DNA from: Blastomussa wellsi
Taxonomy: Eukaryota > Cnidaria > Anthozoa > Scleractinia > Plerogyridae
Assembly (NCBI GenBank): GCA_947652115.1
Contig: OX393567.1
Span: forward strand, 19,605,298-19,669,297
Direction of reading: 5' to 3'
DNA: 64,000 nt
The translations under genes were made by a program, and so were the position numbers. The notes beneath the pieces were generated by a model, which worked only from the letters and a program-made list of their open reading frames with translations, was not told the DNA's origin and searched no databases. Of the stretch, positions 8,113-23,482 are shown piece after piece; position 1 is the first letter of the stretch, and each line of letters opens with the position of its first letter.

Positions 8113-8120
8113 ATGGGAAC
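8113..8120. repeat. Target-site duplication, left
   Basis: ATGGGAAC lies directly outside the left terminus and again directly outside the right terminus (23483-23490). Polintons typically give 6-bp duplications, so GGGAAC may be the true duplication with two extra bases matching by chance or belonging to the end. Confidence 0.8.
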
Positions 8121-8291
8121 ACACACATTACTAGTAGGCTATCTAGCACAGACTCATCCTCTGGACCTTTAAAAATTAAAATTAACCCTCCCAACGGTGT
8201 TGTTTTGCAAACACCACAGTTGGGAGGGTTAATTTTAATTTTTAAAGGTCCAGAGGATGAGTCTGTGCTGGAGCCTACTAGTAATGTGTGT
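8121..8291. repeat. Terminal palindrome (hairpin) in the left repeat
   Basis: Arms of about 80 bp (8121-8200 and 8211-8291) are inverted copies around a short centre TGTTTTGCAA. The outer arm reads GGCTATCTAGCACAG where the inner arm, inverted, reads GGCTCCAGCACAG. Either strand of this end can fold into a long hairpin. Confidence 0.9.
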
Positions 8292-8364
8292 GCCCTGAGA
8301 GGTAAAAACATTTTTTCAACAATCAAGCAACAGCATTTTTCAAAACAGAAGACACAAAGGCAAA
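8121..8364 (+). repeat. Left terminal inverted repeat, Polinton
   Basis: 244 bp that match the reverse complement of 23236-23482. I count about five substitutions and one 3-base indel, all in the centre and inner arm of the terminal palindrome. The match stops at GGCAAA (8364). The outermost sequence is ACACACATTACTAGTAGG. Confidence 0.95.
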
Positions 8365-8506
8365 AGAGAGATGGGATCTGGGTTTTTTTGAAGTTCATTG
8401 TGAAATAAAAATGCACCCATTTTGTGAAAAAAATCAACGCATCACAAAAGTTACGTCATGCGGGAAAGTTTGTAGTTTCAGGAAAATTGATTTGTGCAAC
8501 CTGTGT

Positions 8507-8692
8507 TTAAAAAACGGAAAGAGGCATATTATCGGCCGCCCTGTCTTTCACTGAAATTTCACAATGTTTTTTTTCGTCCGCTTCACGCATCGCCTCAACA
8601 ACTTGTTGAGCTATCTGTCTGACATCATTCAGCCAAACTGGAGAAGAAAGTTCCGCAAAAATAACGAAAAGCATGTGAAATATCGTGATCAT
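8507..8692 (-). CDS. Possible small Polinton protein, 61 aa
   Basis: A short ATG-started frame lying 64 bp downstream of the 213-residue gene on the same strand. A hydrophobic N-terminus is followed by a charged, helix-like segment (VVEAMREADEKK). I do not recognise it. It is listed because it lies in line with the neighbouring minus-strand genes in otherwise empty sequence inside the element. It could equally be chance. Confidence 0.3.
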   Translation of the reverse strand: MITIFHMLFVIFAELSSPVWLNDVRQIAQQVVEAMREADEKKHCEISVKDRAADNMPLSVF

Positions 8693-8756
8693 TTTGAGTT
8701 ATGCAGTCAACCTTTAATTATAGTTAAAGATATTTTTTTTGTTTTTCCTTCAAACT

Positions 8757-9398
8757 TCAGTTCAAATTTGCAGTGCTTGGCGCCGCGAGTTTTCTCATAA
8801 GCTGTTCTTGAAGCTCTTTTTTTATCTTTTCAACATCAGGCAGTTTACCTAAAGATGGTTTTTTTGTGAGCTTTGCTCGTACCTTTTCTTTTAACTCATT
8901 GTACTGTTCCAATTCAGAAAGAATAATCTGAAACTCAGAATCACTAATGCGATTATCAATTAAAGCCTTGGAAACCAGCTTGTCAACACTCGCACGTTTT
9001 GCAAGGCCAAGAGTAACAATCTCCTGGTGTTTAGACATTTTTTTGTCAAGTTTTTTCCCGGCAAGAATCAAACCGGAGGAAGCAACAGAGAATAAACCAC
9101 CAACAACACCAAGAGGGATGGCCACGGGTATTCCGACCCCTGTTAGAGCAGACGCAAGTCCAGCACTAGAAAAAACAGCGCTGAGTCCGCCAAGACCGCC
9201 GGAAATCCAGTTGACGGCTGTTTTTGCGCGTTTAAATTTTTTTCGAACAAGTCTATATTTGTCAACCTCTTCAGCCAACTTTTTTTTGATTTCGTTTATC
9301 TCTCCAAGGCGAAAAGCCTCAGGCTTTTGTAAAACAGGATATAATCCGCTTTGTGGTGTCTCCGGAGGAGCACTGGGCAATACGTTTGATGAAGACAT
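8757..9398 (-). CDS. Polinton virion-type protein with glycine-rich hydrophobic domain, 213 aa
   Basis: Residues 1-25 are Pro/Ser-rich, 30-60 are basic and helical, 61-114 form a long glycine/alanine-rich hydrophobic stretch, and the rest is a charged helical region ending Leu-Asn. The hydrophobic block with basic flanks is like membrane-active minor virion proteins, but I cannot place it in a named family. It lies 51 bp downstream of the probable penton gene on the same strand, suggesting joint late expression. The start is the ATG at 9398, just below a TATTTTATA sequence. Confidence 0.75.
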   Translation of the reverse strand: MSSSNVLPSAPPETPQSGLYPVLQKPEAFRLGEINEIKKKLAEEVDKYRLVRKKFKRAKTAVNWISGGLGGLSAVFSSAGLASALTGVGIPVAIPLGVVGGLFSVASSGLILAGKKLDKKMSKHQEIVTLGLAKRASVDKLVSKALIDNRISDSEFQIILSELEQYNELKEKVRAKLTKKPSLGKLPDVEKIKKELQEQLMRKLAAPSTANLN

Positions 9399-9449
9399 TG
9401 TCTATAAAATACAGCTTTTTTTTTTAATTGTCTGAAATTCAAGAGGTAA

Positions 9450-10115
9450 TCAATTTATCTCCAAAACGAAAGTGAGTGGCATCTCATTGAAATCAAAAAG
9501 TTCACCATTCTCATCTTTGACTGAAATAGTCAAACTGTTTACCTCTCGACTTTTCAAAGTGGAACGAACATGCTGTGGCTCTGACTGATAAAAAACTTTT
9601 TCCCAAGGTTCACCTTTTATATCAAAGTTGGCAAGAATGGTGGATGGTTTTCCATTGAACTGATTTTCTTGTTTGTCAATCAAGTCACAATGGATTAAGT
9701 ACGTTGAAGTGGAGTTCAGTTTTTTTGAATACAATAACGAAAAGAATTTTGGTAAATTTCCGACAACGCCAAAGCCAAGAAGAGAGCTCAAATTTTCATC
9801 AATTTGAAATTCTTCCAAATTTGTGTTTAAGACAACCATTTGACCATAGGGTGTGTTGATTTCTGCTTTTAAGGAGTCACTGTCCGGCAAAAGATCATTT
9901 TCAATTTTACTTTTTAAAGATTTCAAGGTGTAATTGCCCGGTAAAAAGGTGATGGTTTTGTTATGTGTTATCGATTTAAGTCTGCCCACTTTTTTAATGT
10001 TAAACCAAGAATTGTAAAGAGAACAGCTTAAAAGTCTGATATAGTTTGGTTGAAGGGGCTGGTGAAAATAAACTGTGTAGTCGTTTGAAGGAGCGATGAT
10101 TGTGAGCACAACCAT
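9450..10115 (-). CDS. Probable penton (single jelly-roll minor capsid) protein, 221 aa
   Basis: About 220 residues, mostly predicted beta strand, with an ending of the form Val-x-Asp-Glu-Asn-Gly-x-x-Phe-Asp-Phe-Asn followed by a hydrophobic strand (PLTFVLEI). This C-terminal pattern and size are typical of the Polinton minor capsid protein, which forms the pentameric vertices of the icosahedral shell. It is read divergently from the 566-residue gene (86 bp between starts) and followed by the 213-residue membrane-type gene. Start ATG at 10115. The call rests on size, pattern and context, not on an alignment. Confidence 0.7.
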   Translation of the reverse strand: MVVLTIIAPSNDYTVYFHQPLQPNYIRLLSCSLYNSWFNIKKVGRLKSITHNKTITFLPGNYTLKSLKSKIENDLLPDSDSLKAEINTPYGQMVVLNTNLEEFQIDENLSSLLGFGVVGNLPKFFSLLYSKKLNSTSTYLIHCDLIDKQENQFNGKPSTILANFDIKGEPWEKVFYQSEPQHVRSTLKSREVNSLTISVKDENGELFDFNEMPLTFVLEIN

Positions 10116-10201
10116 TTTGTATTGAACACAAAAATAATGGAAAACTATTTTATTTTTGTTCCGTGCAATTTTTCAATTGAAAAATAACAGGGAAAAAGAA
10201 A
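10116..10201. promoter_or_regulatory. Divergent promoter between penton and 566-aa gene
   Basis: An 86-bp A/T-rich gap separates two divergent start codons. The penton start is preceded on its strand by CAATACAAAATGG, close to the CAATATACAAAACATG at 16601. No other element is clear. Confidence 0.45.
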
Positions 10202-11902
10202 ATGAACATATGGAAAACCGCAAACAAACAAGATTCTGTTGCGTATGACTATCTCGAAAAACGAGCGCAGGCTGGCAGCTCCACAAATGCAAAGCTTGCG
10301 CAAGCCAAGGCGTGGGCGACTTTTTCTGCAAGTTTCCCGAGGGCTGACAAAAGCAAATTTGAAGCCCAGGTATTTTTTGCACCGGACAACACAGCAACAG
10401 CCGAAATATTTTTCAAAGAGGGGCCCGACAGTTTGGAAAGCGTATTCGGATCAGATCGCAAATATTGGAGCGCAGAAATGAAAAGAGCTCTGGGTTTGGT
10501 TGAAGTTGGCGGTTTTCCTTTCCAACTGACGCCACGCCCAGAAAAAAGTTCACTGGCGGTTCCAGCAGTTCCATTCGAAGAAGCTGCACCGAGTTTGAAA
10601 AAAATATTCAACAAAGTAATCAAAATTTATGTCACCCCTGACCAGTATTTTACAACAAAGTTTAGAGAGATATTTACCAAGGAACAACCGAAATTCGAAA
10701 CGTCAAAGCCCGCGAAAAAATGGCTGGCGAAGCCAGATATGTCTTTCTGGGAACAGCAGCTGAACTTTGCAGTGTGGTGCGCGACAACAGGCTGCGGAAT
10801 ATCTCGAGAAGTATTTGACAAAGACAGCAAGCTGAAGCTGCCGCCACAGGTACGAGCGTTTTACATCTTTCACGTGTACTTTACGGTTCGACGCATCCTA
10901 TTTCAGCTCGGAGGTATCCAAAGCTTTAGCGCATTGCCGGGTGATCCAACATGGAGTCAGTTTAACAACAAATATGACGAAGCTTCTTATAAAAGATTAT
11001 GTGCTGAGTTCAAAGTTCCTTCATCAACCGATTTTCGGTTTACAATTGGCCCGAACCACGGGCTAGGAAGCGTTTATATTTATTGCCGCGATCCTTTCAT
11101 CCTGAACGTTCCCTATCCATCAGCAAAAGCAAAATTCGATGACGAGGATCCAATGGCGTCAGAAAAGGGAATATCAGTTTGTTTCATAAGAAATGATGCA
11201 GCTGAAGAGCAATTCAACTGGTTCGCACCAAAAACCACAACAGGTTTGACCCAGGCAGGTTTGTCGAGAATAAACCAGTCGATTGAAGCATTTGTGTATT
11301 GCATCTTGGGTGCGCAAGTAAACGTCCGCAGCAGCATTCTTGGGGCGGGGGGCAGAGCAAAGGAGGCCCAGACCGAGTTTCTTGTCCTGGTTGAAGACGC
11401 AGTGAGGATGCCCGACCTGGCAAAGAGCGTGCAGCGTTACCAGCTGGCGGTGGACGAGGCAAAAGTGCGGTTGAACCTTGCTGTGTGCCCGGGCGCTTGG
11501 TTGATGCCAGGCCGCATGGTTATCAACACAGAAAGCACGGTTGGTTACAACAACCAGCTCAAACAAGCGATTCCGGGTATGAAGCTGGGGGTCAACGACG
11601 GGGCAAACAAAAGAACAAAAAAAGCGGCCCTTCAGCACATGGATGGCGGAAAATCAAAAATTAACCCACCAAACAGCCATCCTTCCAATCCAATTCACAA
11701 AGCAGCCACAGCTGAAAGCAAAAAAGATTTGAAACCTGTTGAAACACCGACAACACAAGAGTCAACACAAACAACGCAAGTGCACACAGAAGAACGAGTG
11801 CCAACGGCTGGCTCGGGCAGTGATTCTCATGACACGAACAAAGTTGCAATGATGGTTGGCGCGGTTGCAATTGCAGGTTTGTTGTTTTTGACATTCCGCT
11901 AA
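10202..11902 (+). CDS. Unassigned Polinton protein with C-terminal membrane anchor, 566 aa
   Basis: A large globular region (residues 1 to about 450) is followed by a low-complexity Thr/Gln/Glu-rich linker (about 465-540) and a single hydrophobic segment at 547-565 (MVGAVAIAGLLFLTF). Tail anchoring suggests a protein bound to a membrane or to an internal lipid layer. It resembles uncharacterised proteins I associate with cnidarian Polintons, but I know no function. It is convergent with the 520-residue gene, their stops being 23 bp apart. Size and position in the structural block make a virion or assembly role plausible; this is inference. Confidence 0.85.
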   Translation: MNIWKTANKQDSVAYDYLEKRAQAGSSTNAKLAQAKAWATFSASFPRADKSKFEAQVFFAPDNTATAEIFFKEGPDSLESVFGSDRKYWSAEMKRALGLVEVGGFPFQLTPRPEKSSLAVPAVPFEEAAPSLKKIFNKVIKIYVTPDQYFTTKFREIFTKEQPKFETSKPAKKWLAKPDMSFWEQQLNFAVWCATTGCGISREVFDKDSKLKLPPQVRAFYIFHVYFTVRRILFQLGGIQSFSALPGDPTWSQFNNKYDEASYKRLCAEFKVPSSTDFRFTIGPNHGLGSVYIYCRDPFILNVPYPSAKAKFDDEDPMASEKGISVCFIRNDAAEEQFNWFAPKTTTGLTQAGLSRINQSIEAFVYCILGAQVNVRSSILGAGGRAKEAQTEFLVLVEDAVRMPDLAKSVQRYQLAVDEAKVRLNLAVCPGAWLMPGRMVINTESTVGYNNQLKQAIPGMKLGVNDGANKRTKKAALQHMDGGKSKINPPNSHPSNPIHKAATAESKKDLKPVETPTTQESTQTTQVHTEERVPTAGSGSDSHDTNKVAMMVGAVAIAGLLFLTFR

Positions 11903-11925
11903 TTTTTGAGTTTTCCCAAAGAAAA

Positions 11926-13488
11926 TTAACGCTGCTTTTTGGCATAGCTCTCAACCAAAAAGGCCACAACAGCCAAAATTAAAAGCCATGTGTGTTCTGC
12001 CAGAAAACCGAGGACCTTACCAGCAGTTGCGAAAAGAAAAGAAACAATCGAGCCGAGCAGTCCCGGAAGAATGGAGGCTGTTTTTTTCGCAATAGCTTTT
12101 AACCCGTTTCCCAAAGCTTTGGCCATTGATTTCAAAGCGTTGGTAATGGCGCCAATGACAGCACCAATCGTGACACCTGCGGCAAGAAGGATTGAAGTCA
12201 CTGTCACGCCGTACTTTTTGAAGATCTCTTTTACACGCTCACGAAGCGGCATGGCTCTTTCTTTTTCTTCAATTTGTGTTGCCAACCTGCCAATCTCCTC
12301 TTGTCTATCTGCAATTCTCTCCCTGGCAGCCTCTTTTTCAGAAGGTGAAGCGTTTTCATCATCGATAATTGCTTTGTCTTCTTTATTTTTGTTTTCAAGT
12401 TCTGCTTTTCGCTCTTTTTTTTCGTTAAGATCTTCTGTGTTAATTTTTTCTTGAAGTTTCTCTTCAGTTTCTTTTAATTCGGCATTTTTTTGTGTGAGCT
12501 TCCGAATATCTTCTTGCAATTTTTTGCCATCTTTTGCTGCTTTTCTAGTTTGATCAAGTTTCTTTGCTAATTCTTGATGGTCTTTTTCAAGGTCTTTTTT
12601 CTGTTGTTTCAGTTTTTCAATTTCTTCTATATTCAATGGCTCATTTGTATCTTCAAGATCATCTTTCTGTTGTTCAATTTGTCTTATTTTGTTTCTCTTT
12701 TCTTCCATTTGTTGTTTTAGTTTTTCAGATTCTTTTGCCATTGATTCTTTTTGTTTCAGTTCTTTTTGTTTTTCTTTCATCTGTTTTTCAAGTTCATCAC
12801 TTTGTTTCTTCGTTTCTATTAAATTTTCATTATCAATTTCTAAAGCCTTTCGGCCAAGCACTTTTTTGATGTATTCCGTTTTAAAGAAAGAACTTTGAAA
12901 ATCTTCTCCATTTGAAAGAAATACCTTTATCAGACCAGCATTTTTACCAATAGCAACAATATCCATAAATTTAATTCCTGGTTTTGTTTTTGCTTCTTCG
13001 GCAGTTGCAAGCCTTAATCCCAATTTAGGTATGTTTGCTTCTGGATATCTTTCTTTGATTAATTCTTTTGCACGTTCGATTTCCACATTTTGTACAATAT
13101 TTATTAATTGTTTTGCTTCTTTATCTTTTCCCTCCTGAGTTAAAATTTCATAATTATTTTCAGCTTTATCTGAGGAATATAAATCTGTATGATCGTTTCT
13201 TAAAGCTTTCAGTCTTCTTTGAATCTCATCATCTGTTATATATCTTCTACTTGTTCCACCAAAAGATGTTTCTTCAATATAAGATTTATCTGGCAGCCCG
13301 CTTTTCTCGTGAGACATTGTTTGCATCTCAATCTCTTGACCTTGAGGCCAAGGTGTGGATGAGTCGCCAGGGATAAGAGGAATTATTTCATCGTCATCAT
13401 CGTCATCATCGTCATCATCGTCATCATCGTAGTCAATATCATAGTCAAGATCAGGGTCATCGTATCCAAACTCTCCACCTTCAGCCAT
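11926..13488 (-). CDS. Acidic, coiled-coil, membrane-ended Polinton protein, 520 aa
   Basis: The N-terminus holds an almost unbroken run of Asp (about residues 12-34), encoded by an impure GAT/GAC microsatellite near 13385-13445. Residues about 215-420 are highly charged Lys/Glu/Gln repeats typical of a long coiled coil. The last 95 residues are hydrophobic, with Gly/Ala-rich helices and a final membrane-like segment (WLLILAVVAFLV) before a basic tail. This layout would suit a tether between membrane and a basic partner. I do not recognise the family. It is divergent from the major capsid gene across 60 bp. Confidence 0.82.
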   Translation of the reverse strand: MAEGGEFGYDDPDLDYDIDYDDDDDDDDDDDDDEIIPLIPGDSSTPWPQGQEIEMQTMSHEKSGLPDKSYIEETSFGGTSRRYITDDEIQRRLKALRNDHTDLYSSDKAENNYEILTQEGKDKEAKQLINIVQNVEIERAKELIKERYPEANIPKLGLRLATAEEAKTKPGIKFMDIVAIGKNAGLIKVFLSNGEDFQSSFFKTEYIKKVLGRKALEIDNENLIETKKQSDELEKQMKEKQKELKQKESMAKESEKLKQQMEEKRNKIRQIEQQKDDLEDTNEPLNIEEIEKLKQQKKDLEKDHQELAKKLDQTRKAAKDGKKLQEDIRKLTQKNAELKETEEKLQEKINTEDLNEKKERKAELENKNKEDKAIIDDENASPSEKEAARERIADRQEEIGRLATQIEEKERAMPLRERVKEIFKKYGVTVTSILLAAGVTIGAVIGAITNALKSMAKALGNGLKAIAKKTASILPGLLGSIVSFLFATAGKVLGFLAEHTWLLILAVVAFLVESYAKKQR

Positions 13489-13548
13489 CGCGAAATTATA
13501 TATTCAAATTATTTTTATTTAAATACAAATGTCCGGCGTTGTATAAAC
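13489..13548. promoter_or_regulatory. Divergent promoter between 520-aa gene and major capsid gene
   Basis: A 60-bp interval, strongly A/T-rich in its left part (ATTATATATTCAAATT), separates two start codons. The capsid start reads TTGTATAAACATG, nearly the same as TTGTATAAGCATG at the 17162 gene, so a TATA-like box lies within 10 bp of the ATG. Confidence 0.55.
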
Positions 13549-14799
13549 ATGTCTGTGCAAGCAAACCTTCGTCCAACGAACCAAGAAAAAATTTTAGGCG
13601 GAATGAAAGCCGAGCGCACGGTCAAGCGCATCACTTTTAATCCCAGCGAAGCCAACCCCGGCGAGACGTTGTATGTTTACGTGCCCAAGCTGAATGAGAA
13701 CGAGGTCCTCGTGCCAGGCTCGATCTCACTTATCTTTAACATCGACCTGGCTGGAGGGCACGCCAACAACTTCCTTGTACAAAACGTCTCCCGTGCTCTT
13801 GTCGACAGGCTGACTGTTAAGTACGCTGGAACCATACTGCAGGACACGGTGGGGTATGACATTTTCAAGATCTGGGAGGACCTTTTCCTCTCACAGGAGG
13901 AGCGGGACAACATGCTGCTCGAGGGTATTCAGTCCGAGGACCTCTGCAAGATCCGCTCAAATGCGGGGGATAAAAAAACCTCGGGTGTGGGCGCGGAAAA
14001 CGCACTTAACACGGTTTTCGGAACAAAATATCGAATCCAACTGGACCACCAGATCCTGACCGACCACGGCGTTTTCTACCCCAAAGCTCTTTACCACGAC
14101 CTCATGTTTGTGCTGACCCTTGCGCCGGCCTCGCAGGTTGTAAAAGGCTCTGACCCCGCTAAACTGAAATACAAGCTGACAAACATCCAGCTCGAGTACG
14201 AAATGATGAGGAGCAAGACTCTGGCGGACGACGCGCGAAGTGTTTACTCCTCAGGAAAGGAATTCCTTTACGATCATGTTGAGCGGCCATTTGTGCACAC
14301 CTTCTCAAAAGGCATTGACACAAGGATAAACCTCAGAGTAAACTCGCAGAGAAGGTCCCTGAAAGGTCTTCTTCTCCTTTTCGTTGAGCCTTATGAAGCC
14401 GGCACCAGGGATTCAGAAAAGTACTTCAACCCAGACCTGACAAAAGTCACCGTTACGGTGAACGGCAAGCCCAACATGATTTACAACAACGGCATCGAAG
14501 GAAAGGATATCTGGGGTGAAGTTGACCGCTTCTTTGGAAAGTCAAAAAACAAAACACCGAACATGAATCTGAAAAAGTTTTACACCGAAAACAAGTTCGG
14601 GCTTCTGATAGATCTTCGCTCAATGGAAAGTCATGAAATGCACGGAAGCGGCACGCGGCTTGTAAACACACAAGATGGAGTCCAGCTTGAACTCGAGCGG
14701 AATGCCAAAAACTCAGGCAACGTGAACTGCCACGTCTTTGTTATCAGTGACTCGCAGATGAACGTAATTGGGCAGCAATTAGATTCTGTGCAGTACTAA
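13549..14799 (+). CDS. Probable major capsid protein (double jelly-roll type), 416 aa
   Basis: A 416-residue beta-rich protein without membrane segments, directly upstream of the packaging ATPase (4 bp apart). Several stretches fit the double jelly-roll capsid proteins of Polintons: a mid-protein strand LTNIQLEYEMM, a LKGLLLLFVEP strand starting the second barrel, and a C-terminal block with HGSGTRL and ISDSQMNV. The role would be the hexon-like building block of an icosahedral shell. Codon use is more G/C-rich than the small genes nearby, as often seen for abundant proteins. The identity is inferred from pattern, size and context. Confidence 0.82.
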   Translation: MSVQANLRPTNQEKILGGMKAERTVKRITFNPSEANPGETLYVYVPKLNENEVLVPGSISLIFNIDLAGGHANNFLVQNVSRALVDRLTVKYAGTILQDTVGYDIFKIWEDLFLSQEERDNMLLEGIQSEDLCKIRSNAGDKKTSGVGAENALNTVFGTKYRIQLDHQILTDHGVFYPKALYHDLMFVLTLAPASQVVKGSDPAKLKYKLTNIQLEYEMMRSKTLADDARSVYSSGKEFLYDHVERPFVHTFSKGIDTRINLRVNSQRRSLKGLLLLFVEPYEAGTRDSEKYFNPDLTKVTVTVNGKPNMIYNNGIEGKDIWGEVDRFFGKSKNKTPNMNLKKFYTENKFGLLIDLRSMESHEMHGSGTRLVNTQDGVQLELERNAKNSGNVNCHVFVISDSQMNVIGQQLDSVQY

Positions 14800-14803
14800 T
14801 AAA

Positions 14804-15412
14804 ATGGACCCAGGCAACATACCGTTTAACGCTCTCGTAATTGGACCGACAAATTCGGGAAAATCAAAGTTTGTGGTTGATAAGCTCCGCGGCCCTTTCC
14901 GTGGCAAGTTCGACTTCATCGTGCTCATCTGCCCGACATTTGCGTACAACAAGACTTTTCATCGCTTCGCCGAGGCGGACCCGCGTTTTTTTGTTATCAT
15001 TTGCGAACAGGAATGGGTTGAGGGCTGGTTGAAGCTTGTTTCCGGGCTTTTCGAGGGCACCAACACGCTCATTATCCTTGATGACTGCGCAGCCTCGAAA
15101 GATGTAAAAAAGCGAACAGGCGAGCTGGTCAAACTTGCGTTCAGCGCTCGCCACACAGGGCTAAGCGTGTGGGTGGTCACCCAAAAGATGACCAGCATAA
15201 CGGCTTCTTTCCGCGAAAACATTGGGGCAGTTGTGCTTTTTTACACTCCCGCAGGGAAGACTTTGAAAGCGATTTTTGAAGATTACGCCGGCGAACTTTC
15301 TCAAGATGAGTACAAAGATTACATTTCATGGCTGAAAAAAAATAAGTTTTCCTACCTTGTGTTCTTACTTCGGCACCCTTACGGAATAAAAAAATCTCAA
15401 TTAAAAAAATAG
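14804..15412 (+). CDS. A32/FtsK-type genome packaging ATPase, 202 aa
   Basis: Walker A GPTNSGKS is at residues 14-21. Walker B is the hydrophobic strand ending ILDDC at about 91-95. A later VWVVTQKM strand fits the sensor region. The length of about 200 residues and the position after the capsid gene fit the Polinton packaging ATPase, which pumps DNA into preformed shells. The start ATG follows the capsid stop by 4 bp in the sequence AATAAAATGG, so the two are probably closely co-ordinated. Confidence 0.92.
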   Translation: MDPGNIPFNALVIGPTNSGKSKFVVDKLRGPFRGKFDFIVLICPTFAYNKTFHRFAEADPRFFVIICEQEWVEGWLKLVSGLFEGTNTLIILDDCAASKDVKKRTGELVKLAFSARHTGLSVWVVTQKMTSITASFRENIGAVVLFYTPAGKTLKAIFEDYAGELSQDEYKDYISWLKKNKFSYLVFLLRHPYGIKKSQLKK

Positions 15413-15425
15413 CAATAAATATAAA

Positions 15426-15986
15426 ATGGCAAATCCATCCGAATTAACCCCAGAAATTGAAGAAACTATAAATGACATTATGAACTTGATTGAAGCTGAG
15501 CCAACGAGCGCGCCCGGCAATGCCTTTCCAGTTTCAACGCAGCCTGATATTCCTGCACTTCGTGAGCAGCTTGCCGTGCTGGTGTCAACAGGGAAAGCCA
15601 AAGAAGCAATCGGGGTGCAGTTAACACACGAGAATGTGAAGCGCCTCAGTGACAAAGAGGTCGAGAAATACACAAAACGGTACGAGACATACGTGGGCTC
15701 AAAGACAACCGACAGCTTGATCGACAGCTTCGTTTTTCTTGTAACCAAAGCCGTCGGAATGGCAGTCAACCTCGACGACATCCATGATTATCAAAAAGAA
15801 CTTAAAAACGACTACATCATCAACAAAGAGCTGTCTAACCTGGCAGGCAGCATGTCCCTGAGGTGCGGTCGTTTTCTCGCTGTGGCAAACGCAGCTCTGA
15901 TCACAACAAAACACATTAATTTTGAAAAAAATCACGAAGCAAAATCGGAAGAAATTATTGAGCAAAGCCCACCAACCGCTGAATAA
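15426..15986 (+). CDS. Conserved-type Polinton protein of unknown function, 186 aa
   Basis: A soluble, mainly helical protein: Pro/Ser-rich N-terminal 50 residues, then charged helices (KRLSDKEVEKYTKRYETYVG at about 79-98) and a C-terminal helical part with an alanine-rich stretch (VANAALITT). It resembles an uncharacterised protein I associate with cnidarian Polintons next to the ATPase gene. I cannot name a function. The start lies 13 bp after the ATPase stop, behind an ATAAATATAAAATGG leader. Confidence 0.8.
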   Translation: MANPSELTPEIEETINDIMNLIEAEPTSAPGNAFPVSTQPDIPALREQLAVLVSTGKAKEAIGVQLTHENVKRLSDKEVEKYTKRYETYVGSKTTDSLIDSFVFLVTKAVGMAVNLDDIHDYQKELKNDYIINKELSNLAGSMSLRCGRFLAVANAALITTKHINFEKNHEAKSEEIIEQSPPTAE

Positions 15987-16056
15987 TTACTCAGAAAGCC
16001 AGCAATTCCTGACAAAATTTTTTTTTAATTAAATATAAATTTGTTTCAAAGTAACA

Positions 16057-16554
16057 ATGGCTGAAGAACAGAAGCAACCGACCGCTCAAGAAATCTCTGA
16101 ACCGCAGCAACCAATGGAAAGCCAAGTAACTTCACAAACTCCGGCAACAAAGCCTGCCAAAAATCCCAAGCGAGTGGCTGCTGGGAAAATGGTTGCCGAA
16201 AGAACACGGCTGGCCCGCGAATCGCAGAAAAAAACCGCAGCTGAGGCGGCTATCATTATTGCAAACAACAAGCAGGCAAAAAAAGAAACCGCTCCCCGTG
16301 ATCCTGCTCCTGAGCCGGAAACCGAACCAAAGCCTGCTGCAGCCGATTCAGAGGGTTTCACCACAAACCAATGGCTAACTATCGCTGGAATTGGCGTAAC
16401 CATTGTTACAACTTATGTCAAGCGTGATGATATAAAAGCTTTTTTCGCAAAAAAACAGGATAATCCACCGGAGCCGCAGCCAAAAGAACCAGCTCCTCTG
16501 CCGCAGCCACCGCAGCCACCGCAGCCAAGAAAAGGAATTCGCAAAATGGATTGA
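16057..16554 (+). CDS. Single-pass membrane protein with Pro-rich tails, 165 aa
   Basis: Residues 1-100 are Pro/Gln/Ala/Lys-rich and low in complexity, 105-121 form one membrane segment (WLTIAGIGVTIVTTYV), and a basic stretch leads into a Pro-Gln repeat tail (about 137-160). The tail is encoded by short CCGCAGCCA repeats at 16500-16530. It is one of a run of small membrane-type genes between ATPase and integrase and has no recognised family. Confidence 0.7.
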   Translation: MAEEQKQPTAQEISEPQQPMESQVTSQTPATKPAKNPKRVAAGKMVAERTRLARESQKKTAAEAAIIIANNKQAKKETAPRDPAPEPETEPKPAAADSEGFTTNQWLTIAGIGVTIVTTYVKRDDIKAFFAKKQDNPPEPQPKEPAPLPQPPQPPQPRKGIRKMD

Positions 16555-16600
16555 TTGCATTGGTGCCGCCCCAATTTAATATTTACACAATATACAAAAC

Positions 16601-16855
16601 ATGAAAATTGACGGTGCCCAAGCTGTTGCATCAGGCGTTGGTATTTTTGCAATCAGCTATTTTTGGTTAAAATTTTCCGTAGCATTTTTTGATACAATCA
16701 TGCTTCTCTGGGATGCACCATTCATTGAAGAAGATGAATATGAAGATGAGGAATTTCCTGTGTTGCCAATTTACCCTGACGAGAAACCGCCAAGCTATGC
16801 AGATTCACAAGCTGATGAAGATGAGAAGCCGCCAAGCAATGTGGAGTCTGAATAA
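16601..16855 (+). CDS. Small membrane protein with acidic tail, 84 aa
   Basis: A hydrophobic N-terminal half (about residues 8-38) is followed by an acidic Glu/Asp run and two copies of a DE-KPPS motif at the C-terminus. The start is preceded by CAATATACAAAACATG, matching the start-proximal pattern of other genes in the element. Unknown function. Confidence 0.62.
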   Translation: MKIDGAQAVASGVGIFAISYFWLKFSVAFFDTIMLLWDAPFIEEDEYEDEEFPVLPIYPDEKPPSYADSQADEDEKPPSNVESE

Positions 16856-16894
16856 TTTTCTTTTGAACTTTTATTTTTTTCTTTCATACAAAAC

Positions 16895-17116
16895 ATGCCT
16901 GAAAACAATCTTGTAAAAAACGCCATGGAGGCCGCGACTCTCGTTGGCCTCTCTGCTGGCATTGGGTTGGCTGTCAAAAAAGTGTTCAAGAGAAGTTTTA
17001 CAGATGACCCTTCAGATTCTATCGAAAACTTCGCAATGTTCACTGGTGTGATGACGGGCAGCATCTGGCTCAAGAAGTACCTGGAGGACCAGAAAATCCT
17101 CCCGACCAACGTTTGA
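16895..17116 (+). CDS. Small membrane-associated protein, 73 aa
   Basis: A Gly/Ala-rich hydrophobic helix (about residues 8-28) and a second weaker hydrophobic segment (45-62) are separated by a basic turn. The leader reads CATACAAAACATG like the gene before it. The GC-richer codon use fits the neighbouring genes. No family recognised. Confidence 0.6.
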   Translation: MPENNLVKNAMEAATLVGLSAGIGLAVKKVFKRSFTDDPSDSIENFAMFTGVMTGSIWLKKYLEDQKILPTNV

Positions 17117-17161
17117 ACACCCAAAAAAATCATTTGAAAAAATGCCGCCGATTGTATAAGC

Positions 17162-17593
17162 ATGGCATCGTTTGGAATAATGACTCTCGGGGCTGTGTTG
17201 AACGCAGCTGCTTTCACCGGCGGCAATTATCTGGCGAAGTTTTTAGAAGGCGATGACAGTGAAAAAGCCGCTCTTGAAGAAAAAGAGCGCCACGACCGAG
17301 CTATCGAGGCGTATGATGCTGCGAAAGCCAAATACGTGCGCGACCGCACCAAATTTCTCGACTGGATTGCAACAAACGAGCTCATAAAAGAGGAAGCCAA
17401 TCAGAACTTCACCAACACTGACTACGCTTTAAAACTTTACAACCAGGCGCATCCTGAAGAGCAAATGGCTCCTCCCAAAGAGCCCAAATTTTCGGATTTT
17501 TATCAACCAAGCCAGCGGCAAAAAAATGGTGAACTCATGTTCGTCGGGGCGGGGGCTCTCGCTTTGGGCTACGCTGCTTTCCGGTTCTTTTAA
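17162..17593 (+). CDS. Polinton protein with hydrophobic ends, 143 aa
   Basis: The N-terminal 24 residues are hydrophobic, the middle is a charged helical domain, and residues about 125-143 form a C-terminal hydrophobic segment (LMFVGAGALALGYAAFRFF). The segment KFSDFYQPS before it looks like a conserved motif of this unnamed family. The start lies directly below TTGTATAAGC. A role in the virion membrane or vertex is possible but unproven. Confidence 0.72.
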   Translation: MASFGIMTLGAVLNAAAFTGGNYLAKFLEGDDSEKAALEEKERHDRAIEAYDAAKAKYVRDRTKFLDWIATNELIKEEANQNFTNTDYALKLYNQAHPEEQMAPPKEPKFSDFYQPSQRQKNGELMFVGAGALALGYAAFRFF

Positions 17594-17789
17594 ACTTTTT
17601 TTTACCTCTTTTATATGGATTTCTACTGTGTGTATGAGAAGAAGATCACCCCCAACGTTCGTGGGAGTGAAAGACTCGGAAAAACAAAAAATGGGCAAAC
17701 CTTTCTGAAAGTCAAATGCGCCTCTTGCGGGAAAACCAAAACAAGATTCATCTGCTAACATTTAAACTTTTTTTCACCTCGTTTATATG
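17591..17789 (+). promoter_or_regulatory. Two near-identical leaders (17591-17617 and 17763-17789)
   Basis: The sequences before the zinc-ribbon gene and before the integrase match over 27 bp: a TAAAC box, a T-run, ACCTC, then TTTATATGGA containing the ATG. The second copy differs at two bases. Their repetition directly at two consecutive start codons points to a promoter or initiator with an ATG-embedded TATA. Confidence 0.55.
17615..17758 (+). CDS. Tiny zinc-ribbon protein, 47 aa
   Basis: Read directly from the sequence. Cysteines at residues 5, 35, 38 and 47, with the core KCASCGK near the C-terminus, make a four-cysteine zinc-ribbon pattern similar to the DUF5679-type small proteins of large DNA viruses. 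It fills most of the gap between the 143-residue gene and the integrase, is preceded by the same leader as the integrase, and is followed 28 bp later by the integrase ATG. Function unknown; nucleic-acid or protein binding is possible. Confidence 0.65.
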   Translation: MDFYCVYEKKITPNVRGSERLGKTKNGQTFLKVKCASCGKTKTRFIC

Positions 17790-18785
17790 GACACCAAACT
17801 CGCGAAGATATACTACAGCCCTGGCGGTTATTGGAAAGGCATTGCCGCCATCAAAAAACTGGCCGCGGCTGCAAACGTCCCGGAAGACACCGCAAAAAAG
17901 TGGTTGATCCAGCAAGCCCTCTGGCAGATATTCCTTCCGGCGCCGAAGCATATACCTCGACCGAAATTCGACGTGTCCTTACCCAACAAGGTCCACCAGG
18001 CGGACCTTCTTTTTTTGCCTCACGACAAACTGCCTCGCGGTCGCAAAGTCTGGAAATACGCGCTGAACGTTGTCGACGTGGCCAGCCGTTTCAAAGAGTC
18101 CGAACCCTTGACCTCGAAAAATTCTGATGAGGTTGCCCAGGCTTTTCAGAAAATTTACAAGCGCGGCCCTTTGAAATGGCCTGAAATGTTGCAAGTTGAC
18201 CCTGGGCGCGAATTCATGGGCGCTGTGACGAAAGTCATGGAAAATCACAAAACTTTCATCCGGCGCGGGCGCGTCAACATTCACCGCGATCAGGCCATTG
18301 TTGAACGTTTCAACCGCACCCTTGCCGAACGCCTGTTCGGTCACCAGTATGCCGTGGAAATGCGGATGCCTGAGGGCCAGCGGTCCAGGGCATGGGTGAA
18401 AAGACTTCCTGAAGTTGTTTCGGCTTTGAACAACGAGGTGACCAGCCTCATCGGAAAGAAACCCGCTGTTGCAATCAAAGAGAAATCTGTTTTTTCGAAA
18501 CCTTCGACTGCTTATCACAGACCTGTTGGGAAGGATGAAAAAATCCTGCCATATCTTGTTCAGGTTCGCCATCTTTACGAACCTGGTGAGCTTGAAGGGG
18601 GGAAAAAAAGAGCCACGGATCCGATTTGGTCTTTGAAAGTTTTCACCATTGAAAAGGTTTTACAAAAACCGGATCAGCCCGTTCTGTACTATTTGCATGA
18701 TGTACCCAAGCGCGGCTTTGTGCGTGAAGAGCTGCAGATTGTGCCTAAAAACACCGTTCTCCCGCCGGCCAGCGTGGACAGTTGA
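17787..18785 (+). CDS. Retroviral-type (rve) integrase, 332 aa
   Basis: The catalytic core shows Asp-73 (HQADLLFLP), Asp-138 (LQVDPGREF) and Glu-173 (IVERFNRTLAERL), with 34 residues between the last two, close to the D,D-35-E spacing of the family. The N-terminal 60 residues are helical without a clear HHCC zinc finger. The C-terminal 90 residues are beta-rich and could bind DNA. It inserts the linear element into host DNA and makes the flanking duplication. No inactivating change is seen. Confidence 0.93.
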   Translation: MDTKLAKIYYSPGGYWKGIAAIKKLAAAANVPEDTAKKWLIQQALWQIFLPAPKHIPRPKFDVSLPNKVHQADLLFLPHDKLPRGRKVWKYALNVVDVASRFKESEPLTSKNSDEVAQAFQKIYKRGPLKWPEMLQVDPGREFMGAVTKVMENHKTFIRRGRVNIHRDQAIVERFNRTLAERLFGHQYAVEMRMPEGQRSRAWVKRLPEVVSALNNEVTSLIGKKPAVAIKEKSVFSKPSTAYHRPVGKDEKILPYLVQVRHLYEPGELEGGKKRATDPIWSLKVFTIEKVLQKPDQPVLYYLHDVPKRGFVREELQIVPKNTVLPPASVDS

Positions 18786-18821
18786 ACAAATGAAAATCCA
18801 GATTAAATTTTTTTCTCCAGA

Positions 18822-19112
18822 ATGAAAATCAAAGCTGCTTTGATCAATACCGTCTGTTTTTTCTCTTTGGTTTTTCTCGGTTCAGCCATTTATGGTCCGA
18901 AAGTTCTTGATTCTGTACCCTTTTTTATCAATTTTTTTGATGGCCAGCTTGAAAACATCTTTTGGAATTTGCTCAAAATTACAGTGGCGTTTAATGTGAT
19001 GCTTGTTATTGCAAAAATGTCTTCAGGAACGCGGATTGAAATTCGCTCACCGTTTGGTTTGGGGAAAAAAACTGGCTTGAACAACCAAAACTGGCCAAGT
19101 ACAAACAAATGA
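18822..19112 (+). CDS. Small two-helix membrane protein, 96 aa
   Basis: Two hydrophobic segments (about residues 6-28 and 45-66) with a short loop and a basic, polar C-terminal tail. It starts 36 bp after the integrase stop. No named family recognised. Its position fits the set of small membrane proteins of this element. Confidence 0.6.
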   Translation: MKIKAALINTVCFFSLVFLGSAIYGPKVLDSVPFFINFFDGQLENIFWNLLKITVAFNVMLVIAKMSSGTRIEIRSPFGLGKKTGLNNQNWPSTNK

Positions 19113-19123
19113 AATTTTGAAAA

Positions 19124-19330
19124 ATGGGCCGTGGACGCAACGGTGTTATTGTTCAAACCTCAAGCAAAGGAAAAAAACGCGCCATCAAAGAGCTTTCCAA
19201 TAATGCATGCTCTGTTGTTTTTAAAAAACCCTGCCCATCCTGTGAAAAGGAAGTCATTTTTCTTGATCAAGCCATTGTGAATTATTTACAAAGTTTGGGC
19301 CCGCGTGAGGTGGCTCAAACATTAAAGTGA
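19124..19330 (+). CDS. Small basic protein with one CxxC pair, 68 aa
   Basis: A basic N-terminus (GRGRNG, KGKKRA) is followed by Cys-37 and Cys-40 (KPCPSCEK) and a short helical end. A half zinc-ribbon of this sort could dimerise around zinc or bind nucleic acid. Its last 16 bases overlap the 3' end of the polymerase gene on the other strand. Confidence 0.6.
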   Translation: MGRGRNGVIVQTSSKGKKRAIKELSNNACSVVFKKPCPSCEKEVIFLDQAIVNYLQSLGPREVAQTLK

Positions 19331-22300
19331 ATGCCTTCCAGAAAAGCCGCCATCTCTTCGAGTTCCTCTTCTGTGAGTTGGGTTTCACCCCACCCCCCAC
19401 AACACTCTTTGTAACCATATGCTTTTGTGTGGATCCCGTCATCCGCGATCCAGCGTTTTGAGTCAAACGCGCACAGTGAAATCTTGTTCACGTGCATGCC
19501 CCAGATTTCATGCCCTTCGCTCCGCAGAATGTTCATGCCGTGCCTCAGCTGTTTCTTCTCTCCGAAAATCATTTCTTTGTAATGCTCGTGCTTTATTTTT
19601 TTCTTTACAACGCACTTTTTCACCCCTTTTGCCTTTTTGGTATTTTTTTCGTCCGCTCGGAGGATTGAATACATTTTTGACCTGAGGCAGACAACTTCTT
19701 CTATTGCCGCCCCCGCGCATTCATCTTTCATTTTGCCCAGGACCTTTTTGTTCTCGCTTGAGTGCAGTGGGTGGTCTTTCGGGTAATCGCTCAAATCGTA
19801 CAAAATTTCGTTTCTCGCGATGTCCTTGTACACGTCTTCTGTTTCAATCTCAAGCAAGAGACTGTCCGTGTCCGTGTACAGAAGTTCACATTTCTTGCCG
19901 TACTGCTTTTTCAGGTGGCTGTAGTAAAAGTCGTACATCAGGATCTTGCTGTTGTCCAAGATCGTCATCCCCGTGTACACCGGTTTGTTCAGCAGAAGCT
20001 TTCCCTTGAACATGTGGACACCAGCCATGTTATTTGTGAATTCTACAAACCTTGAGTATAATGGATTGGCTACGAGTTTTCTGATTTTGTTTTCTTCTTC
20101 CGAGTTTACAATCTTGATGTCCGTGCGCTTCCGCAGGTTCTCCATTGTTTTCCCGAATACTGCGTTGTTCATCAGTTTGTAGAAGTTCTTTTCAAAGTCG
20201 CTTTTGGCTTTTTTCCGCAATTCTGTGTTCTTCATGATGTATGGCTCCATCCAACGCTCTTGGTCAAACTCCAGCGCCTTGTGGACTTTTTTCAATTTCA
20301 TCCCCTGGTCAAGATAAAATTGAAGGTTCCTGTAATGTAAAACGTAGTTGTTTTTGTCTTCTAACGTCAGCAGCAGCTTCTTGTCTTTGGGTGGTTTCAG
20401 TTTAAGCTCTTCCATCAGACGTTTTTGGTAATCCGACATGTCCTCTTTTTTTACCGCCTTTTTTTCCGGTGCAAGCGGGTAGCTGTCGTGCTCTTCGTGG
20501 AGCTCCACCGGATATTCCAGGTCGACCTCAAGGATCCACCCCCTTTTTGCCAACTCTTTTTTCTTTCGGATTTCTTCTTCCGTTGGCAGGACCCTTTTCC
20601 AACTGAAATTCCTCAATGGTAAGGGCTTGCACATGGCCCAGCCGTAAAGGTTATTTGCATCGAGATACATGATCCAGCTTTTCGGTTTGGTCTCATCGAA
20701 ATCTTTGCACATTGGGTTGTTGGCTTTCGCGTATCTCTTGCTTTCCATTGAAATCCCGCCTCTCATCCCCCTTTCCACAAACAAGTGCTTGTCGATGTCT
20801 GTGAAAAGCTCCAGCTCGACTTCTGTCATTTTCAAGAGCGCGTCCCAGCCAAATCCTGGTAATGTGAAATAATGCGCTGGATCCAGCCCGTACTGCTTTT
20901 GGCATAAGTCTCTGAAATTTTCAAAAACATCTGCCAACAGTGCGACATCTGTTTCCACATAGAGATCGTGATAGTCTCCAAGATTTTGGCACCCAAACGT
21001 TTCCCACACTTTCTGTGCGTGGGCATAATCTTCATCTGAAATCCCTTCGTCGTTCAGTTTACTATAAAACTTTTCCTTTTCCGGAAGATTTGTCTCCTCA
21101 AATTTCTCCCATGCATCCATGTACTCATATGGGTAAATCCCTTTTTGGTGGAGAAGATTTGCTTCCCTTCCGCGGTCCGCAGCTAATTTTTCTGTGAAAT
21201 ACAACACCTCTTTTGGTGTGGCTTTCACAACTGAATCAAGGCTTGCAAGCAGGAAATTCAAGCTGTCAATGAAATGCAATCCGCCCATGGAAAATGTAAT
21301 GTACTTTTCCATGTTGTTGGCAATGCATTTCACTTCTTTTTTCTGGTGCTCCATCGCTTGCATAATGTGGTGTGCATCATAGCCTCTCAAATTGTGGAAA
21401 ACCACTGGAATTTGGAATGTTTTTGGCTTCAATTTCAGTTTGAAATTGCAACTATTGTGCGCCACACCGCGGAACTTTCCTGTTATATGGCAGTGATCTT
21501 TAACCGCATCCCTGTATAACGGTTGGAGCAATGGTTTTTTACAAAAATGGCAGTTTTCTTGTTTTGCGGCCTCTTCTTTTTGCTCTTTGGAAAGCTTTTT
21601 CATGCAAACCGTTCCAACCCTTTTTTGTACAAACCAGAAACATTTTTTGTGAACCTGACCCAGATATTTTTCTTTTTTCCATGCTGAAAGTGAATCAAGG
21701 AAATTTTCTTTTGTCAGGCTTTTGTTGCAAATGTGGCAATCTTTTGCTGTTTTGAATTCTTCCCAATCGTCATGGTCCATCACAATTTGTTTTGGTTCTT
21801 GCACGCTTTCTCTCAGTTTTTCTTCCTCCTGCACAATATCTTCCAGAAAATTTTTCACCGCGTTTTCTCCTCTGAAAACTTTTTTGTTCATAACTTTCCC
21901 ATCACTTCTCACGCACATCCACGCATACCCACACGCTTGGTGCCTCTCTGTTTTTTCTGTGGAACTTTCTCCTTCCGGTCGCTCGCATGTTGCAACCTTT
22001 TCAATCAGTGCTTCAAAATCCGCATAAATCACGAAAGGGGCTCTCATCTGTTTGTGTAAATTTTGGAATTTCAAGACGTTTTTACCTTCTTCCGGCACTT
22101 CAATTCTTGTCGGCCTGCCCTCCACTCCGTTGCAGTATTTTTTGTGATCCTCCAGCAGGTCTGCCCTTGTGTACCCTGTCATACACAACATGCAGTAATG
22201 GTGTGTGTGGTGTGCTTTGGTCTGATCGTGCAACAAAGCGGTCACACTTTTGACAAAACAATAGTGTTGGTTTTCTCCTGATGTTATCAATATCAGATTG

Positions 22301-23103
22301 GTTCGTGGCAGGTTTTTCTCTTTCTTGCTTATGTGGTGGACGATCACGCTGTTGTTTTCCCAGCCAAAAACGTTGATTGAGAGATGTTTGTTTTGTTTTT
22401 CAAGCTTTTCAATATCCCCCACCGGTGTTGGGAAGTTGATTCCTGTCCAGTTAATTCCATCTTCTTTGGGGTATTTGCTTGTTCTTTGTGGGTTCTTTCC
22501 GTCTTTGGGTGGGAAAAGTGCTGCTCTGATTGCCCACCTCAAACATTCATTGTCATTATTTTGCACGTTAACAACTGCTTTCTTTACCGCGAGTTTTGCT
22601 GGAGTGGGGAAATATGTCCCCGCACGCATCGGTTGATATCTCGCTGTGTTCACATACGCTACCTCCACTCCATCAAAATTCCACCCTGATCCATTCGCTG
22701 ACCAATCCTCGATTTCTCCGTTGACCTGCTCAATAAATTCTTCAAACTTTTGTGCGATTTTTTCTTCATCATTTTTGTCTTTGTTTAAGAAAACAAACGG
22801 GTCATCGTTCTTGAAATAATGTTCTTGTCTCACCGTTTTCATGTTGCCTTCTCCATCATCAACTTCTCGTGAAAACTTTACTCTCATTCCGAAACCCACT
22901 TTCACGTTTTTCAGTGCAACAATTTCATTTTTCACCGTGTTTGTGAACTTTTCTTTATAAAAATTTGCAAAAGTGCGGAGATCTTTGTTGTTTGGGTCAT
23001 TTTCTCTGAATGTCATCCACCAGACGCGGAGCCATTCACGATAGTTCGTTTGTGAAATATTGAAACGTCCATAAGGCATTCCTTGTGGAGCGACGTCGGC
23101 CAT
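19315..23103 (-). CDS. polB: Protein-primed family B DNA polymerase, 1262 aa
   Basis: Exonuclease motifs: IYADFEAL (about 359-366), NLRGYDAHH (571-579) and DLYVETDVALLADVF (713-727). Polymerase motifs: A at MYLDANNLYGWAM (812-824), B at KLMNNAVFGKTMENL (976-990) and C at LYTDTDSLLLE (1075-1085). The long stretch between A and B fits the insertions of protein-primed enzymes. A Cys/His cluster (304-324) and a second one (456-488) precede a block with CHFCKKPL and DHCHITGKFRGVAHNSCN (518-553), which resembles the HNH-like recombination endonuclease VII fold. The enzyme would replicate the linear element from its ends. Start is the ATG at 23103, behind AGTATAGG. Confidence 0.96.
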   Translation of the reverse strand: MADVAPQGMPYGRFNISQTNYREWLRVWWMTFRENDPNNKDLRTFANFYKEKFTNTVKNEIVALKNVKVGFGMRVKFSREVDDGEGNMKTVRQEHYFKNDDPFVFLNKDKNDEEKIAQKFEEFIEQVNGEIEDWSANGSGWNFDGVEVAYVNTARYQPMRAGTYFPTPAKLAVKKAVVNVQNNDNECLRWAIRAALFPPKDGKNPQRTSKYPKEDGINWTGINFPTPVGDIEKLEKQNKHLSINVFGWENNSVIVHHISKKEKNLPRTNLILITSGENQHYCFVKSVTALLHDQTKAHHTHHYCMLCMTGYTRADLLEDHKKYCNGVEGRPTRIEVPEEGKNVLKFQNLHKQMRAPFVIYADFEALIEKVATCERPEGESSTEKTERHQACGYAWMCVRSDGKVMNKKVFRGENAVKNFLEDIVQEEEKLRESVQEPKQIVMDHDDWEEFKTAKDCHICNKSLTKENFLDSLSAWKKEKYLGQVHKKCFWFVQKRVGTVCMKKLSKEQKEEAAKQENCHFCKKPLLQPLYRDAVKDHCHITGKFRGVAHNSCNFKLKLKPKTFQIPVVFHNLRGYDAHHIMQAMEHQKKEVKCIANNMEKYITFSMGGLHFIDSLNFLLASLDSVVKATPKEVLYFTEKLAADRGREANLLHQKGIYPYEYMDAWEKFEETNLPEKEKFYSKLNDEGISDEDYAHAQKVWETFGCQNLGDYHDLYVETDVALLADVFENFRDLCQKQYGLDPAHYFTLPGFGWDALLKMTEVELELFTDIDKHLFVERGMRGGISMESKRYAKANNPMCKDFDETKPKSWIMYLDANNLYGWAMCKPLPLRNFSWKRVLPTEEEIRKKKELAKRGWILEVDLEYPVELHEEHDSYPLAPEKKAVKKEDMSDYQKRLMEELKLKPPKDKKLLLTLEDKNNYVLHYRNLQFYLDQGMKLKKVHKALEFDQERWMEPYIMKNTELRKKAKSDFEKNFYKLMNNAVFGKTMENLRKRTDIKIVNSEEENKIRKLVANPLYSRFVEFTNNMAGVHMFKGKLLLNKPVYTGMTILDNSKILMYDFYYSHLKKQYGKKCELLYTDTDSLLLEIETEDVYKDIARNEILYDLSDYPKDHPLHSSENKKVLGKMKDECAGAAIEEVVCLRSKMYSILRADEKNTKKAKGVKKCVVKKKIKHEHYKEMIFGEKKQLRHGMNILRSEGHEIWGMHVNKISLCAFDSKRWIADDGIHTKAYGYKECCGGWGETQLTEEELEEMAAFLEGIHFNV

Positions 23104-23235
23104 TTTGTTTCCTATACTTTGTCAACATTTCTTCAAATGAAAAAATAATTATTGGCACAAAATTTTTTCAAGCTGTCATCCTATTGTTTGAAGGTTTCCC
23201 GCCCCCATTGTTTGTTTCTTTTCTGGAATAATAAA

Positions 23236-23482
23236 TTTGCCTTTGTGTCTTCTGTTTTGAAAAATGCTGTTGCTTGATTGTTGAAAAAATGTTTTTACCT
23301 CTCAGGGCACACACATTACTAGTAGGCTATCCCAGCACAGACTCATCCTCTGGACCTTTAAAAATTAAAATTAAGCCTCCCAACGATGGTGTTTGCAAAA
23401 AAGCACCGTTGGGAGGGTTAATTTTAATTTTTAAAGGTCCAGAGGATGAGTCTGTGCTAGATAGCCTACTAGTAATGTGTGT
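23236..23482 (-). repeat. Right terminal inverted repeat, Polinton
   Basis: 247 bp, the inverted partner of 8121-8364. It ends in CTAGTAATGTGTGT at 23482, directly followed by the ATGGGAAC duplication. Confidence 0.95.
23309..23482. repeat. Terminal palindrome (hairpin) in the right repeat
   Basis: 174 bp of self-complementary sequence matching the left-end palindrome. The outer arm is identical to the left outer arm over its first 45 bases or more, whereas the inner arms of the two ends differ by a 3-base indel. Confidence 0.9.

Follow-up and report, generated by a model that had tools for sequence, protein, structure and literature searches.

The 64,000-nucleotide stretch of the Blastomussa wellsi genome analysed here (the window; contig OX393567.1, C10:19605298-19669297 within a searched genome of 368 Mb in 124 contigs) carries, at positions 8121-23482 (15,362 bp), a complete integrated Polinton-type provirus with open frames. 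Many eukaryotic DNA viruses are traced back to Polintons, whose way of copying their ends has largely been inferred from other protein-primed viruses. The provirus ends in long terminal hairpins, a notable feature that is unexpected for such a virus class and was overlooked in an earlier reading made from the letters alone (the sequence-only reading), and these hairpin ends make its mode of DNA copying testable.

The provirus and its hairpin ends

The ends and their flanks comprise the following features.

8113-8120, no strand: left 8-bp target duplication ATGGGAAC, from comparison of the flanks
8121-8364, plus strand: left terminal inverted repeat, 244 bp
8121-8291, plus strand: left terminal hairpin, 171 nt, with tips ACACACAT/ATGTGTGT, from the DNA fold
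23236-23482, minus strand: right terminal inverted repeat, 247 bp
23309-23482, minus strand: right terminal hairpin, 174 nt, in which the inner arm is the longer one, as conserved in the family, from the DNA fold
23483-23490, no strand: right 8-bp target duplication ATGGGAAC, from comparison of the flanks

The outer 171 nt of the left end and the outer 174 nt of the right end each form a near-perfect hairpin, with predicted DNA folding energies of -88.6 kcal/mol for positions 8121-8292 (shuffled sequences -16.1, standard deviation 3.1) and -85.3 kcal/mol for positions 23311-23482 (shuffled sequences -14.9, standard deviation 2.5). The bounds of the element proved exact as originally given, and the alignment of the inverted ends (8121-8364 against 23236-23482) spans 247 columns with five substitutions and a single 3-bp gap, in line with the identity of about 97-98 % first proposed. 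A 3-bp deletion in the left end, absent from the 12 other copies of this end, makes the inner arm of its hairpin fall 2 nt short of the outer one (arm offset -2); the earlier statement that decay is absent is therefore not quite right. Identical pairs of 8-mers at the spacing of the element occur 3 times in 48,622 window positions.

Between the ends lie the following genes, all given as open frames.

8757-9398, minus strand: 213-aa protein with a hydrophobic middle, no Pfam match above the cut-off
9450-10115, minus strand: 221-aa penton-like (minor capsid) candidate, 852 homologues
10202-11902, plus strand: 566-aa conserved protein with a C-terminal hydrophobic segment, 2481 homologues
11926-13488, minus strand: 520-aa acidic protein, coiled-coil-like by eye, no Pfam match
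13549-14799, plus strand: major capsid protein (MCP; 416 aa), double jelly roll by fold search of the model
14804-15412, plus strand: genome-packaging ATPase (202 aa) of the A32/FtsK type, Pox_A32 at E 1.5e-7, above the cut-off
15426-15986, plus strand: 186-aa protein, Pfam-scanned
16057-16554, plus strand: 165-aa proline-rich protein, Pfam-scanned
16601-16855, plus strand: 84-aa open reading frame (ORF)
16895-17116, plus strand: 73-aa ORF
17162-17593, plus strand: 143-aa protein, Pfam-scanned
17787-18785, plus strand: retrovirus-type (rve) integrase, 332 aa, with D73, D138 and E173
18822-19112, plus strand: 96-aa hydrophobic ORF, Pfam-scanned
19124-19330, plus strand: 68-aa ORF
19315-23103, minus strand: polymerase, 1262 aa, with exonuclease and palm motifs located

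The model of the capsid protein is modest (pLDDT 58, pTM 0.56), and all 50 rows listed in its fold search are double-jelly-roll capsid or scaffold proteins (E 1e-9 to 2e-6); the closest relative from the databases, in a tree with 47 capsid proteins, shares 79 % identity. Few relatives of the capsid protein and of the 566-aa protein are named, and these come from the coral Oculina patagonica; the structure model of the 566-aa protein is poor (pLDDT 48) and unfit for a fold search. The integrase matches the Pfam profile rve at E 2.9e-7 and 31.1 bits, just below the curated 32.6, and the meaning of its D-D-E residues, like that of the polymerase motifs, is one that we presume. For the polymerase, no match to DNA_pol_B_2 was obtained at E<=1, and its tblastn link to another protein-primed type B polymerase of the host genome is weak (E 0.001, 22 % over 193 aa). 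It carries an Endonuclease VII-like zinc module (Pfam match at E 1.5e-6), which recurs in all six other polymerase pieces that cover the region (stem types W, B and D, see below), once with a changed histidine. Cysteine and histidine motifs of the polymerase are presumably OTU-like; neither an OTU domain nor a chromodomain gave a profile match in the polymerase or the integrase. No adenain-like protease was matched among the 12 Pfam-scanned proteins (three short ORFs lie outside that scan), neither the polymerase and integrase sequences nor three alignments gave a usable match among solved structures, and a viral contig collection scanned with the MCP, the MCP alignment, the alignment of the 566-aa protein and a tip 20-mer yielded no relatives.

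The designation as a Polinton/adintovirus-like provirus in the sequence-only reading is supported, and the frames of the polymerase, integrase, packaging ATPase, capsid and penton-like proteins are indeed uninterrupted. As to the diagnostic genes that it named, the integrase, ATPase and capsid are supported and the polymerase stands without a DNA_pol_B_2 match, while the penton label leans on conservation (the 852 homologues) and on a sequence character that we take to be penton-like, the best profile match of this protein to solved structures being weak (E 0.28).

In the surroundings of the element, open frames on the minus strand at 635-6390 match leucine-rich repeats, ZU5 and the death domain (one of the two death-domain matches is under the cut-off); they are probably a single host gene, with a domain arrangement that we take to be PIDD1-like, and the largest of them lies about 1.7 kb from the element. 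A dispersed repeat family is present at 1211-1656, 35601-35717 and 42193-42540 in direct and inverted copies that are 90-97 % alike, close to which a weak GIY-YIG match, under the cut-off, lies at 42399-42914; together these are perhaps a broken Penelope-like element. Positions 31075-31242 hold a tandem pair of 84-bp copies that are 99 % identical.

Hairpins, stems and genes across the family

The pattern ACACACAT-N(145-175)-ATGTGTGT occurs at 180 places in the genome, as against 5 for a reversed control; these places were inspected in part, hairpins were compared in 18 elements beyond the window type, and hairpins outside the length range of the pattern also exist. The tip is ACACACAT in 48 of 48 outer and 47 of 48 inner positions (the 48th being offset by a one-base cut), an identity that is partly circular in that 16 of the 24 two-ended elements were picked for both exact tips, which also favours young copies; the others are six of the window type and two picked by capsid position. 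Six elements picked by capsid position alone (C1:31.27, C9:0.946, C9:2.38, C10:16.6, C2:10.77 and C15; positions in Mb) all show the ACACACAT tip at a located end, with stems unlike those of the window. Piece L111, likewise inspected, showed no tip.

An exact 5-bp target duplication flanks 23 of the 24 two-ended elements (as against 0 of 552 mismatched left-right pairings), and with C15 and C9:0.946 Mb, which were chosen by capsid position and have exact 5-bp duplications too, the family total is 25 of 26. These duplications occur regardless of stem type, next to ends with differing stems, and in 24 of 24 elements the outer tip directly adjoins the target duplication. The sole exception among the 26 is the window copy, in which no 5-bp match was found at the ends; its 8-bp flanking repeat, already recorded in the sequence-only reading, is a genuine duplication, although the family does not habitually make them at that length. 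The duplication at C2:5.34 also reads as 8 owing to a short repeat, and that at C2:9.36 as up to 6 inside a T run. Target duplications of 8 bp are made by hAT and P elements; 8 bp as a family habit, or as a pointer to a transposase of the hAT or P type, was rejected, as the other elements show 5 bp.

A genome search with the left end of the window copy recovered at least 13 copies, and this end sequence was found on only six two-ended elements (12 ends) and one single end, which continues into element sequence. These counts are lower bounds, and none of the 13 copies is a hairpin alone, a finding that bears on the reading of the palindrome as a foldback transposon in its own right that occupies both ends, with the provirus as the cargo of a composite. 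This reading draws on the hairpin unit having the terminal sequence of the element at both of its own ends, and on some hairpins of another stem type that lack a partner about 15 kb away among the listed matches; apart from the missing solo copies, it is contradicted by the bases inside the window hairpins (GCCCTGAG), which do not repeat the outer flank, and by the 5-bp duplications of the family, which are at odds with the 8 bp of a hAT or P element. We regard it as scarcely credible, and for the window type it was rejected on the count of 13 copies without a solo hairpin. The same tips with a further stem type lie at C1:18970808, C1:27498050, C2:9411386, C2:10900032 and C4:14280260, for which the partner is absent among the listed pattern rows; these five places are possibly solo or non-autonomous derivatives.

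The inspected hairpins sort into five stem types (the window type W as well as B, C, D and E; the C15 stem was assigned to type B by sequence). Within a hairpin, the two arms share 85-96 % identity (49 ends), and the outer arm of one type shares 38-72 % with the inner arm of another. In eight comparisons of W with type-B stems, 28-31 positions have changed alike in both arms and 4-7 are unmatched, and 16 between-type comparisons of C, D and E stems give 19-34 matched versus 5-13 unmatched changes, so that matched changes prevail in 24 of 24 between-type comparisons; 12 within-type comparisons show 0-20 matched and 3-11 unmatched ones. The inner arm is longer by 1-2 nt in 48 of 49 ends, at about 21-27 nt from the tip, the exception being the left end of the window copy.

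Variation among the 13 window-type end copies falls mostly within the hairpin loop, and in the copy at C9:1.07 Mb the loop is inverted in both ends (1 difference when inverted versus 7 when read directly); exchange from arm to arm therefore does occur. Such exchange would suit an ordinary Polinton with neutral terminal palindromes that nothing but gene conversion within the host chromosome keeps alike, as would the many unmatched arm changes within types. Drift, however, would not hold the arm asymmetry in 48 of 49 ends, and stem mismatches are common to different insertions, from which it follows that the arms are not continually homogenised; we thus consider neutral palindromes very unlikely.

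The provirus lineage has spread recently and widely in the host genome. At least 100 relatives of the capsid gene are present (100 scored of 1261 candidates), and the best 30 of these 100 listed loci are 98.0-100 % identical to the window in DNA, one being the locus of the window itself and four others showing no difference from it in 1,248 coding bases. Premature stops occur in two of these 30 loci, and their distinct codon variants, 34 silent and 40 replacing, correspond to a pN/pS of about 0.34, which the ranking by protein score biases low. Furthermore, the two hairpins match without a single substitution in 19 of the 24 two-ended elements. The recent insertion that had been proposed accordingly holds for the family, whereas the window copy itself has the most substitutions between its own ends (five; the next-highest copy has three). 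Two or three of these five are, by eye, variants that are also found in other copies; the ends are therefore not a simple clock, and dating by end-to-end differences was set aside.

Polymerases were compared as 501-base pieces from ten elements. Those of three window-type elements are 98.8-99.4 % identical to the window in amino acids and 99.6-99.8 % in DNA, and those of seven elements of types B, C, D and E share 55-82 % in amino acids with it. Same-type pairs of polymerase pieces share 81-100 % in amino acids and different-type pairs 56-93 %, and stem and polymerase identity correlate with a Spearman coefficient of 0.63 over 33 overlapping, non-independent pairs. Base for base, C1:31.27 (type C) and C10:16.6 (type D) have the same capsid gene as the window, and their polymerase pieces show 78 % and 81 % DNA identity, respectively, to the polymerase of the window. 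This near-identical capsid-integrase cassette alongside diverged polymerases represents gene-block exchange within one animal genome. At five further loci (L054, L061, L062, L063 and L064), capsid genes 98-99.6 % identical to that of the window adjoin 1.5-kb stretches that diverge or find no match on at least one side, which likewise suggests an exchange of gene blocks between elements.

Integrase pieces from all six other elements compared, across five stem types, are 97-99 % identical to the window in amino acids; the integrase therefore needs no particular stem. The same near-identity, with stems that differ, speaks against the hairpins serving integration or excision, with an integrase that would require an inverted pair of tips at either end and a stem that is a mere spacer. 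Both hairpin tips being ACACACAT is in keeping with that reading, though 16 of the 24 elements were picked by tip; the target duplication, however, abuts the outer tip in every element, and a spacer would leave unexplained why pairing is kept along the stem, which makes this role decidedly unlikely.

The genome also houses a separate Polinton lineage (e. g., L001-L008) with polymerases of about 1320 aa that match DNA_pol_B_2, in many copies, many of which have open frames. The L001 polymerase gave this match but no Endonuclease VII match at E<=0.01, and none of the 18 DNA_pol_B_2 rows compared on contig C1 has a listed hairpin within 20 kb (the remaining rows on C1 are second matches at the same places).

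How the ends may be copied

We favour, with about an even chance of being right, a Polinton-type virus in which the hairpins form part of the replication origin, synthesis starts from a protein and the integrase reads the shared tip. The polymerase would begin at the (AC)3 tip, primed by a protein, and displace one strand, each end of which would fold back and thereby re-create a double-stranded tip without the opposite end, while the small arm asymmetry would fix which arm is the outer one. The integrase, for its part, may read only the shared tip, perhaps together with the bulge near position 25. In favour of the proposal stand the folding energies far outside those of shuffled sequences, the 180 pattern matches as against 5, the tip in all six elements picked by capsid position, the high identity of the arms within a hairpin, the excess of matched over unmatched changes between types, the longer inner arm, the near-identical integrase and capsid genes beside differing polymerases, the correlation of stem with polymerase identity and the 5-bp duplications that disregard stem type.

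Several observations weigh against this proposal. No primer domain was identified in the element by any tool, and only 11 of the 37 capsid matches on C1 and C2 sit between two strict-pattern hairpins, whereas 26 do not. In five of the 12 within-type comparisons, unmatched arm changes exceed matched ones (e. g., 11 versus 1 in type E), and compensation is therefore not immediate; recent changes are often uncompensated and long divergence is largely compensated, as expected of selected pairing, but slow gene conversion between the arms could likewise yield matched changes. The pairing of polymerase and stem also appears loose, with stem type following the polymerase only in part: two type-B polymerases share 81 %, and those of type B share 73-85 % with the window type (three pairs at 85 %), while C and D polymerases share 89-93 % though their stems share 67-69 %. 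Moreover, the polymerase gene adjoins the right end, and linkage alone could give the correlation.

The same hairpins could be copied by self-priming, as in parvoviruses, where the folded 3' end would act as the primer and a nick at the bulge, possibly made by the Endonuclease VII-like module, would resolve the closed end, with one orientation kept and only one arm an active origin. Long terminal hairpins and the module, with its Pfam match and its presence in all six pieces, agree with such a scheme, but Endonuclease VII modules are widespread in animal Polinton polymerases and do not constitute specific evidence. The arm difference of 1-2 bases resembles the GA/GAA doublet-triplet in the left hairpin of minute virus of mice (PMC1185569). 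Symmetric hairpin transfer, however, would swap the arms in about half of the ends, as opposed to the longer inner arm in 48 of 49, and neither an HUH endonuclease, which would act as the nickase, nor a superfamily 3 helicase was found among the 12 Pfam-scanned proteins. Overall, self-priming seems unlikely. A flip-flop of whole hairpins as in adeno-associated virus is not supported by the comparison of the arms.

Between protein priming and self-priming lies a mixed scheme, which we put forward tentatively as possible but rather doubtful: a protein-primed polymerase of the Polinton type would work on parvovirus-like hairpin telomeres, the asymmetry would mark the active arm, polymerase and hairpin would co-evolve, and the capsid-integrase cassette would move between replicons. 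With its many young hairpin-ended copies, several stem types and paired changes, the family offers a natural data set on which features of the ends matter.

Comparison with known systems

With Polintons/Mavericks, the element shares a polymerase of what appears to be the protein-primed type, the rve integrase, the A32-type ATPase, the double-jelly-roll capsid, inverted ends and a length of about 15 kb; it differs in its long hairpin ends, its AC tips and the lack of a protease match. An adenain-like protease, present in 74 % of Polintons (PMC4028283), is not a strict requirement. The (AC)3 tip has the same form as the (AG)3 ends of vertebrate Mavericks, whose target duplications are 6 bp long (PMC8097293), and the 5 bp of the family and 8 bp of the window copy depart from this vertebrate type only, duplications of 5-6 bp being given for polinton-like viruses (PMC12220804). 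One coral polinton has been described as encoding its terminal protein in a separate gene (PMC11071308), and a limited search of the literature on Polintons, in the excerpts it returned, found no report of hairpin-ended ones. Adintoviruses, including Stylophora coral adintovirus, have in common with the element the animal setting, the integrase and a type B polymerase; they are defined by an N-terminal OTU-like domain of the polymerase and a C-terminal chromodomain of the integrase (PMC11071296), neither of which gave a profile match in the element.

Parvovirus telomeres resemble the ends described here in the terminal hairpin and its small conserved arm asymmetry, exemplified by the left hairpin of minute virus of mice, in which only the doublet side serves as origin (PMC1185569). 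Unlike parvoviruses, the element has the gene set of a double-jelly-roll virus and two ends that are alike, with no parvovirus gene among the 12 scanned proteins.

Bidnaviruses are thought to join parvovirus and Polinton genes. They have a type B polymerase of Polinton origin, as does the element, and their GT-repeat tips are common to a wasp Polinton; their ends, however, are stated to form no hairpins (PMC4061559), which is why hairpins on the Polinton side are unexpected. If true, the mixed scheme would thus provide a present-day system with Polinton genes and parvovirus-like ends, bearing on the origin of bidnaviruses.

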